Below, piece after piece: positions 14,101-17,100 of a DNA stretch of 64,000 bases. How positions within the stretch are numbered: position 1 is the stretch's first letter; every line of letters begins with the position of its first letter. Source of the DNA: Terebella lapidaria (taxonomy: Eukaryota; Annelida; Polychaeta; Terebellida; Terebellidae); contig OX424569.1 in the NCBI GenBank assembly GCA_949152475.1, forward strand, positions 24,721,950-24,785,949, in the 5' to 3' direction. The notes beneath the pieces were generated by a model, which saw only the letters and a list, made by a program, of their open reading frames with translations, had not been told where the DNA came from and made no database searches. The position numbers and the translations under genes were made by a program.

Positions 14101-17100
14101 TCACCCACGTGACGTACAAATATGAAGTTCAGACATGGAGCACTGTATGATCACATTTCAAAAATAAATAGTGCACGAGGGCACAACTAAAAAGAGTTCT
14201 TAGCCGGCGGCGTCTCTCTGTCCCTTCCCGTTGAAGTTTCCCGTCCCGCTTAGTCGAATGGTTTCTCCAGGTAGTCGGTCTAAATCCCGGTTGACTCTAA
14301 GGCCCTGAAGAAGGAGTCGTCCGCACGGAGTTCGTCGAGTCCCTTGGCTGTGGCGGTGACGATCTCCCCACGGTCGATGTCGCTGTTGCAGTGCTCTCAG
14401 AGCGGCCGTCCGCTCTCCCTTATATAGCCAGGGTGGCTGCGCGCGCATCTTCGTCCGCGAACGTATCTTCCGCACTCTTCTCCACGTGGTGAAGACTGCG
14501 TCCGCGAACGGTTCTTCCGCGAAGGCTCCTCTTCCGCGAACGGTGCTTCCGCGACTGATGCTTCCGCTGACGATGCTTCCGCAATCGTGCTTCCGCGAAC
14601 GGTTCTTCCGCGAACGATGCTTCCGCTGATGATGCTTCCGCAATCGTGCTTCCGCGAACGGTTCTTCCGCGAACGGTGTCTTCGCAAGTGGACTTTGTAG
14701 ATCACGTGACCGTTCCTAACGAACGTTTCAGCGCGGCAGTTGCATGGTTTTGTTACAACTCCACCCTTTCTGGAGATCAACGTCCCCGTTGATCCTTTCT
14801 CTCTCTTCTTTTCTCTTCTTCCTCCTTCTTCGTCTTTTCCTGCCTGTCTGATGTTTACAGGGCTCTCTCCCTCCACTTCACTGGCGATCCACCTCGCTTT
14901 CGGACGTCTCCGCCAGCCTGTCTCGAGTGTCTGTATATGCTCGGAGCTGTTCCCGGAGCAGCTTGGTCTCTCGGACGTGGGCTCGCAGCTCCTTCCGGTG
15001 GCTCTTCTCTCGTTGAGAGGCCTCCCCTCGCAGCTGCAGCACCTCGGCCTCGAGCTGTCTCTGCTCCTCCTTGGCTTGGAGCCGAGCCTCCGCTTGGGTG
15101 AGGTGGCGTCGTCCCATGGCTATCGTGGATGCCAGGTCCTCCAGGGCCTTCTCTCCGGCAGTGACCGCTCTGCCCAGGCCCTCCACATACGGTCGCAGTT
15201 GGTCCTCCTCCTCCGGAACGGGCTTGAGGTACCAACTCAGGTCTAGGGGCTTGTAGGTAGGGGCCGAGTCTCTGGGAACGGGGGGTCCGTCGTCCTCGGG
15301 GGTGGGGGCCTCCGGGGATTCCGCCTCTCTCCGCTCCTGCTGAGACTCCGGTTCCTCTTCGCTATTCGGGGGGTCGTCCTCGGGGTCTGGGGCGTCCTCT
15401 GACCTGGGGGCGTCCTCCCGGGGGCTTGACGGCGTGGAGCTGGTCGTCCCGCTGGCCGCAAAGCTGACAGTCTTCAGCTCAGGGGCAGACACAGTAGTCG
15501 GACCATCTCGGGGGTCGGACACGGGCGTGTCGGTCGTCGTCCTCCTCCGTCCTGGCTTGAGGGTGTTGCCGCTGGCATGCGACGTCTCATGCCGGTCTCT
15601 GTCAGCTCGGCGGGCGAATCGCTGGCTGCACATCTTGCAGAGGTGCCGCCCCTCCTTCTGCGTGTGTTTGGTCGCCACGTGTCGGCTAAAGTTGGATGCC
15701 GTCACGTGGATCCGGCAGGGGCTGCACCAGCGTCGCCCTCTCTCGGTGGACAACTTCCGGGCAGGGGACCGTCGACCTCCTCGGGGCTCCTCACGACGCT
15801 CCCGGCTCCTCGAGCGCTCCCGCTTCCGGTCAGGCTTGGTAGGTGGGTCGCTCATCTTGTCGACTTCAAGGGGCAGAAAGTCAGCCAAGTCGAAATCTGG
15901 AACGTCCCCGAAATCTTCGTCTGCAAATGCGGGTATCTCAATGATCTGCAGAGTTGGTGTGTTCATGGTTGAAGTGATGACGGAATCGTAGGCCGGCCTG
16001 CTTATATAGAAAAGGCGCGGACCAGGGATCTGGGGGAAAAAGCATTGTCGTGGAACGAAATAACGTTTTTCGCTTGCTTCCGCGAACGGTTCTTCCGCGA
16101 ACGCTGCTTCCGCGAACGTGCTTCCGCGAACGGTACTTCCGCGAACGCTGCTTCCGCGAACGCTGCTTCCGCGAACGGTTCTTCCGCGAACGCTCCCGTC
16201 ATCGTTTACATCGTTTGGACTGCATTCCCGCTGTTTTCCACTCGTCCCTCGTCATCACTGGGGGTCCGGACTGGGGTCACATCGTCCGGATTGGGTATCC
16301 AGGCGTCGGTTTCAGGGGTGAACCAGCACCTTTTTATATTGTCAATGTGGACATCTTTAATCTTGCCACCGGGTCGATCTTGTATGGACACCATCCATCC
16401 GAGATGAGACTTCACAACGAGATAAGGTCCCGTCCACCCTAGTCCTAGTTTTGGTCTAGCCTTTGGAGGGTACCAATACATCACCCAGGTGCCCACCGGA
16501 AAATGTCGAGCGGCTGATTTTATGTCATGATGGCGCTTTTGTCGCACCGTAGCCGTCTTCAGGCACTCTCGGGCAGTCTCGTGAGCTTGTATGGTGGCTT
16601 CCTTCACCCATTCGACGTATTCGGACGCACACTCGGGGACTGGTCCTCCCAAATCGTCCGGTTTCGTCCGGTACCTCAGGTCCAATGGGGTGGTTGCCTC
16701 CCGTCCCATCATCATTCGAAATGGTGTACACCCGGTGCTTTCGTGTACTGATGTTCTATAAGTCGCCATCACGTAGGGCAGATGGTCGTCCCAGTCGTCA
16801 TGGTTCTCGTCCACGACCACGGCCAGAAGGTTCAGCAGGGTCCGGTTGAATCGCTCGACCATCCCGTCTGATTTGGCGTGATAAGGGGTCGTCCGAGTCT
16901 TCTCCCCTCCTAGGATCTTGATCATCTCAAGGAAAAGCTTACTCTCGAACTCTCGTCCCTGGTCGGTGTGTATCTTGGCTGGCATTCCCAGGCGGCACAC
17001 GAACTCAGTCACAAAGACGTCCGCCACCGTCTGAGCCTCATGGTTGGGTAGAGCGTAGGCCTCAGTCCACTTGGTGAAATAATCACCCACGACCAGTATA

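Follow-up and report, generated by a model that had tools for sequence, protein, structure and literature searches.

A candidate zinc-finger regulator encoded by Ty3/gypsy retrotransposons of the annelid Terebella lapidaria, and its putative site arrays at two promoters

Results and discussion

The stretch of DNA analysed here (the window) comprises 64,000 nucleotides of the annelid Terebella lapidaria (assembly GCA_949152475.1, contig OX424569.1, positions 24,721,950 to 24,785,949) and holds, on its minus strand, a Ty3/gypsy long terminal repeat (LTR) retrotransposon at 13862-24798, recognised by paired LTRs and gag/pol domains. Between its integrase open reading frame (ORF; 16206-17849) and 3' LTR (13862-14757), the element carries an accessory ORF at 14878-15966. 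Coordinates are those of the window, and all features of the element lie on the minus strand. We consider it probable that the 362-residue product is a self-encoded DNA-binding activator, most likely dimeric, that acts on both the LTR and the ORF's own internal promoter. This is the most economical explanation because the same sites stand at both TATA boxes in three families of elements, and because the protein combines an acidic N-terminus, zinc fingers and a likely dimer. From these patterns we infer binding, activation in preference to repression, dimerisation, the start sites and feedback. In outline, the protein would bind GCGGA cores with finger 2 on GCG and finger 1 on GA(N). A core array before the U3 TATA box would let it drive gag-pol RNA from the LTR, and another before the internal TATA box would let it drive its own gene, so that two promoters under one self-made activator would form a positive-feedback circuit. 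The cores within gag would offer the protein more places to bind, past the start site, and might act as enhancers or against silencing.

The accessory ORF and its protein

An earlier note on this DNA, made from the letters alone, had described a 362-codon minus-strand ORF between integrase and 3' LTR, and such an ORF is present. Its length is weak coding evidence, since a run of 362 codons without a stop turns up in 27 of 2000 first-order Markov sequences. We call it coding because codon usage prefers its frame over the other five, because it is open in the scored genomic copies and because its counterpart in a related family is under selection (both below). From N to C terminus the protein consists of an acidic segment, a basic stretch, two C2H2 zinc fingers, a Pro/Glu linker and a long helix, the order that had been proposed, including one canonical finger and one with x11/x4 spacing.

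The activation-domain-like segment (residues 1-39; 15850-15966) is acidic and rich in F and L. No other stretch of the four element proteins combines a net charge at or below -9 with 7 or more W/F/Y/L in 39 residues; these limits were chosen after the segment had been seen. The segment bears on whether the protein is instead a repressor or copy-number limiter on the same sites. The direction of regulation is unreadable from sequence and C2H2 proteins are often repressors, but the acidic aromatic N-terminus and a very recent burst of near-identical copies make repression improbable.

The finger pair occupies residues 81-130 (15577-15726). Finger 2 (residues 110-130, C-x2-C-x12-H-x3-H) fits the C2H2 pattern C-x2-4-C-x12-H-x3-5-H exactly, and finger 1 (residues 81-101, C-x2-C-x11-H-x4-H) departs from it by the x11 spacing alone. 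AlphaFold models both as beta-beta-alpha, and Pfam scores lie under the gathering threshold; a second model, of the finger fragment alone, was of low confidence and was not used. Weak likenesses to known fingers were seen: finger 1 of tramtrack (SNFxRH) aligns with accessory finger 1 (E 0.028), which differs in its x11 spacing, and the Zif268-type finger FARSDERKRH of a Zif chimera aligns with accessory finger 2 (E 0.58).

The helix at residues 254-361 (14884-15207) is predicted with pLDDT of about 95 across most of its length, in a model whose mean is 64 and more than half of which is low-confidence. The fit of its hydrophobic residues to a heptad register exceeds that of 99.96% of shuffles, a signal confined to residues 254-290. 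Of the long coiled coil claimed previously, the helix thus stands, with heptad bias in its first third only. This helix, together with inverted site dyads in a related family, is our support for a dimer.

Env-type third ORFs of Errantivirus/gypsy elements also lie between integrase and 3' LTR. The accessory ORF shares that position and instead encodes C2H2 fingers and an acidic N-terminus. By hydropathy, the only measure used, neither the signal peptide nor the transmembrane segment of an env-like ORF is found, the top 19-residue Kyte-Doolittle mean being 0.52; the lack of a membrane segment noted earlier is thereby borne out.

A search of 5.8 billion proteins gave a single match, P0001, identical apart from a 3-residue insert, and a denser search with residues 236-345 returned P0001 again and nothing else. 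The insert, IDK after residue 44 of the accessory protein, is perhaps a polymorphism within one family. Viral contigs were scanned with the accessory ORF, the protease-reverse transcriptase-RNase H ORF, the integrase and the array pattern, and no relative turned up. On kinship to Tas/Bel1, a viral fold library gave no significant match to a protein model more than half of which is low-confidence.

Copies in the host genome

In the whole-genome search (761.6 Mb), the best 113 of 1712 candidate places were scored, the window's own included, and the ORF was open and about 100% identical in all 113; of these, 108 share the top score and 5 are slightly lower. For closer comparison we took 30 copies (L002-L031), the best loci by protein score. 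In 30/30 the TATA box TATATAAG lies at -42 with 7-9 cores within 400 bp ahead of the ATG, and the LTR begins 123 bp past the last codon. Eight sites vary, all synonymous, a product of choice by protein score; they have no bearing on selection, because the loci were picked as the best by that score. This family, termed A, has expanded very recently, and its gag open frames are mostly about 870-918 codons. The 1.5 kb downstream of the ORF, on the LTR side, hold 12-19 cores, and such differences in array length among near-identical copies are as expected for fast-changing tandem sites.

Motif arrays at two promoters

The internal TATA box, TATATAAG at 16001-16008, starts 42 bp and ends 35 bp ahead of the accessory ATG, as the earlier note had it. 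Upstream, at 16077-16192, stand eight exact copies of the 12-mer CTTCCGCGAACG, which in the element's sense reads CGTTCGCGGAAG, at a spacing of 14-15 bp; these are the eight intact copies reported before. The same motif had been said to precede the LTR TATA box, and ahead of TATATAAG at 14419-14426 in the 3' LTR we find a U3 array of 14 GCGGA(A/C)G cores (14452-14686). Allowing up to 2 mismatches, the window holds 60 copies of CTTCCGCGAACG against 2.45 expected, 59 of them within the gypsy element. Copies of CGTTCGCGGAAG sit in U3, in the internal array before the second TATA box and in two blocks of gag. Orientation is strongly biased, with 88 GCGGA in the element's sense against 4 in the opposite sense.

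Within the motif, GCGGA is the least mutated of the eight five-base windows at all three mismatch cut-offs, taking 0 of 34 mismatches among the 47 copies at up to 2, 2 of 58 among the 55 copies at up to 3, and 10 of 90 among the 63 copies at up to 4. GCGGA is followed by a variable base and then, in almost every copy, by G. Of the 55 copies, 53 retain GCGGANG, 43 GGAA and 32 TTCNNNGAA.

These counts bear on two other explanations. The motif might be a site for host factors and the ORF unrelated to it, as ETS factors bind GGAA and STAT factors TTCNNNGAA; the 12-mer includes GGAAG and TTCNNNGAA, and GGAAG is the top 5-mer of the family A promoters. Yet GCGGANG is better kept than either host site. 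In a related locus, L032, the cores are mostly followed by G (56 of 72), which abolishes GGAA, a third family uses GGGCGA, and the match of finger residues to motif across families would have to be coincidence, which leaves this explanation quite unlikely. Alternatively, CGUUCGCG could fold as a short stem with a UUCG loop, an RNA hairpin that would serve packaging or translation. Just 19 of 55 copies preserve all three stem pairs, conservation favours the 3' side, and the U3 and internal-promoter arrays lie upstream of TATA boxes, so that we regard an RNA role as barely credible. On conservation counts, ETS, STAT and hairpin were accordingly rejected as readings of the motif.

Motif copies inside gag

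Going beyond the earlier note, the motif also fills two blocks of the gag ORF (21302-23839, 845 residues, with a CCHC knuckle), in all three frames. The first (23561-23782) is read as SRK and FAE(E/D) in two frames, and the second (22530-23079) mainly as FAE(E/D) and VRGR, again in two. Of the 35 GCGGA in gag, 8 are translated as SRK, 17 as FAE(E/D) and 10 as VRGR. Synonymous recoding of gag yields 9.7 GCGGA on average, and none of 2000 recodings reaches 35. This is most simply read as maintenance of the DNA sequence and not of the peptide. Two gag relatives were found (48-49% identical), in which the motif blocks were not seen. In the alignment with one of these, P0002, gaps of at least 10 residues account for only 18 of the 35 sites, and the gag blocks therefore partly replace sequence and are not clean insertions.

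Could the arrays be functionless, neutral minisatellites that slippage and template switching have spread? Unit numbers do vary between copies, and a similar 15-bp coding array occurs in a planctomycete contig. Such neutrality is nevertheless very unlikely: the core is conserved over its flanks, it is carried in three reading frames of gag, families A and B share one core despite differing units (15, 22, 18 and 12 bp), family B internal promoters hold dyads of fixed N3 spacing, and in three families the arrays stand ahead of both TATA boxes. The planctomycete array itself (L001:3441-3515) has five copies of a nearly identical 15-bp unit and encodes FAEDP repeats. We rejected it as a relative and take the likeness of this coding minisatellite as coincidence, there being no gypsy genes within the 6 kb examined.

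Finger residues and the predicted site

Finger 2 has the recognition helix RRADRDR (R at -1, D at 3, R at 6) and finger 1 TASNFSR (T, N and R at the same positions). In C2H2 proteins the C-terminal finger takes the 5' triplet, hence the predicted order GCG then GAN. By the recognition code, finger 2 is predicted to read GCG and finger 1 GA plus a weakly set base, giving the site 5'-GCGGAN-3', whose GCGGA coincides with the most conserved part of the motif. Comparable modules are RSDDLVR for GCG, TSGNLVR for GAT and TSGHLVR for GGT, as listed in Table 2 of one source (PMC9705829), taken here in reverse finger order. A better test of finger/motif agreement than family A is offered by two further families, B and C, reached via a gag relative; the comparison covers these three gypsy families in this one genome.

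Family B

Family B comprises L032-L045 and others, with ORF proteins taken from L066-L068. An ORF lies at the equivalent position and encodes, by eye, an acidic N-terminus and a charged, helix-prone C-terminus. Its two fingers are C-x2-C-x11-H-x4-H and C-x4-C-x12-H-x3-H, and their reading residues (N3 and R6 in finger 1; R-1, D3 and R6 in finger 2) are the same as in A at 5 of 6 positions. The repeat units measure 22, 18 and 12 bp, against 15 bp in A, and have GCGGA/TCCGC as a common core. Each locus of about 4.8 kb holds 20-35 GCGGA and 24-40 TCCGC (14 of 14, L032-L045), where simulation for six of these loci gives about 8 and 4, and GCGGA is the most enriched 5-mer of two family B promoters (read from L062). 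In the internal promoters of three copies the cores form TCCGC-N3-GCGGA dyads (5, 4 and 3), with none at spacings of 0-2 or 4-12. A TATA-like TTTAAAA lies 45 bp ahead of the ATG in L062, where the ORF is broken by a stop, and in L067.

Among three copies the family B ORF gives pN/pS ratios of 0.12, 0.16 and 0.10 (60, 19 and 55 synonymous against 21, 9 and 17 amino-acid changes), and on these figures it is under purifying selection. The copies were chosen for full-length open frames, a choice that excludes stops and not amino-acid changes, and the pair L066-L068 takes in 31 codons upstream of the likely start. Two expectations of the earlier note thus hold, in that related elements of the host genome (families B and C) carry such an ORF and that it evolves under constraint (0.10-0.16 in family B).

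In L074, an older relative with 67% identity across the matched portion, residues 3 and 6 of finger 1 and -1, 3 and 6 of finger 2 are kept, and there are 5 N3 dyads. Another older piece, L071, is broken. L064 and L065, also B elements, were left out as the pieces examined offer no readable finger ORF, the L064 piece seemingly starting downstream of the fingers.

Family C

The family C ORF is open for 587 codons in all three copies examined (L063, L069 and L070), with a layout like that of A: array, TATA box, acidic N-terminus, two fingers and long C-terminus. Between any two of these copies there are 4 synonymous and 0-2 amino-acid changes, numbers too small to yield a ratio. The first fingers of A and C align with 12 of 23 residues identical (pair E 0.002). 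In the internal promoter TATATA lies at -35, preceded by five GGGCGA and one TCGCCC, and the U3 of L063 has six GGGCGA ahead of TATAAAA. Neither GCGGA nor TCCGC occurs in either family C promoter; the five gag-side loci contain GCGGA 1 and TCCGC 0, and all five have 7-9 GGGCGA against 1.1-1.8 expected. The fingers differ correspondingly. Finger 1 is TASHLSR, with His at position 3 where A has Asn, a change predicted by the code to shift GA to GG. Finger 2 is REDLLSK (L3, K6) and has lost D3 and R6 (the D3/R6 pair), the residues by which GC is read. The site predicted from both fingers, NNG-GGN, would fit GGGC. Finger residues and motif thus agree in A and B and differ together in C.

Weighing the activator against its alternatives

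The note's central proposal, a dimeric DNA-binding regulator of its own LTR and gene, gains support from the finger/motif agreement, the helix and the family B dyads. Several points weigh against it. BLASTP of the A against the B ORF proteins finds no match, using a B piece without finger 1, and kinship between these proteins rests on position and layout because of that result. AlphaFold was run on a single sequence; with this low-confidence model the Foldseek and VIA fold searches gave nothing significant, and residues 284-345 of the helix show no heptad bias (p 0.42). For family A, the code was applied with the motif already seen, and for that reason the chance of a 5-mer matching the 12-bp consensus on either strand, 16/1024, is a guide only. 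The base after GCGGA is mostly A in family A or G in family B, where TSGNLVR would lead one to expect T, and unsupervised ranking of 5-mers in the family A promoters places GCGGA second to GGAAG. In family C just three bases are specified, finger 2 adds little and the expected final T is absent. Dyad spacing is strict only in the family B internal promoter, the LTR-gag piece of L032 having three N3, three N4 and one N5. Two decayed B relatives are mixed: L072 keeps both fingers and has no dyad array in the piece, and L073 keeps finger 1 and has lost a finger 2 cysteine, its array decayed. Tandem arrays can arise by slippage, as the unrelated planctomycete contig with its five copies illustrates. 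The protein may act in repression or anti-silencing in place of activation.

The likeliest alternative is anti-silencing, as by the VANC proteins of Arabidopsis VANDAL elements. VANDALs are DNA transposons, and our element, as an LTR retrotransposon, does not belong among VANDAL/Mutator transposons. VANC is described as an element-encoded, sequence-specific protein whose targets are short motifs amassed as tandem repeats and differ between related VANDAL families, VANC21 sites being reported mainly in non-coding regions (PMC5735166). The accessory ORF resembles this in being element-encoded and in its tandem short motifs and family-specific targets, and differs in that many of its sites lie inside gag. 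By analogy, the protein might bind the arrays and keep the element free of CpG methylation or silencing marks. The arrays are CpG-dense (13-21 CpG per 100 bp, where the rest of the element has 6-9) and extend into gag, and core number varies between copies, as in the 12-19 on the LTR side. The position of arrays directly upstream of both TATA boxes in A, B and C, together with the acidic N-terminus, speaks against it, and we rate it a tentative second choice. Activation and anti-silencing are not mutually exclusive, and the host-factor, RNA-hairpin and neutral-repeat explanations fit worse than either.

Returning to the activator, the nearest functional counterpart is in foamy viruses. Tas/Bel1 is a transactivator that binds DNA and carries an acidic activation domain; it is reported to dimerise, has its own internal promoter and positive feedback, and is thought to act on U3 too (PMC3798896). 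The likeness is at the sequence level: in families A, B and C an array and a TATA box form a putative internal promoter for the regulator gene, with sites that the LTR has as well. The differences are a Ty3/gypsy setting, no recognised env, a C2H2 finger pair and dozens of tandem sites including those in gag. The resemblance would be functional, and no relationship was found. We lean slightly towards a broader proposal, that a Ty3/gypsy lineage independently evolved a foamy-virus-like two-promoter circuit in which family-specific fingers co-evolve with site arrays as private switches. On this proposal such arrays would serve both the LTR and the internal promoter and, in A and B, would extend into gag, whose frame bends to carry sites, and the private switches would keep families of differing specificity from cross-activation.

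Drosophila gypsy carries a Su(Hw) insulator array, likewise an array of sites for a zinc-finger protein, but Su(Hw) is a host protein and the protein here is element-encoded. LTR retrotransposons are generally held to depend on host factors for transcription, and we found no report of an element-encoded regulator in them in the open-licence literature, judged from titles and abstract openings. If our proposal is right, an own activator with its site arrays would explain the element's escape from host control, and foamy-type feedback would have arisen a second time among retroelements. Families A, B and C also form a natural series for comparing finger residues with target motif, which opens protein-DNA co-evolution in a selfish element to direct tests on small purified domains.

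The element and its setting

The 5' LTR (23903-24798) and the 3' LTR are identical over 896/896 bp, with ends TGT...ACA, and CATG flanks the element at either side. An ORF at 18153-21278 encodes protease, reverse transcriptase and RNase H, with Ty3 as the best solved relative: the top PDB matches are 7q5b (Ty3 Gag-Pol, E 3.8e-86) and 4ol8 (RT/RNase H, E 1.2e-85). The domain order, protease-reverse transcriptase-RNase H-integrase, together with a reverse transcriptase nearest Ty3, places the element among Ty3/gypsy LTR retrotransposons. Integrase shares the frame of the preceding domains, parted from them by a single in-frame TAG at 18153-18155, which, given the identical LTRs, could be either a programmed stop or a mutation of this copy.

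By our own reading of 13572-30300, the gypsy element is nested in an Ngaro/DIRS-like element that has an ORF at 26784-29174 with reverse transcriptase and a weak RNase H match, and a long overlapping ORF at 24785-30064. The sequence left of 13862 seemingly resumes right of 24798. Exon-like pieces on the plus strand, at 2072-11876 and 31262-31420, flank the nested elements, which for that reason seem intronic in a host gene. The sole exon-like piece tested, 10563-10886, matches WDR35, and near 62.8 kb lies a piece that we read as AK2-like.

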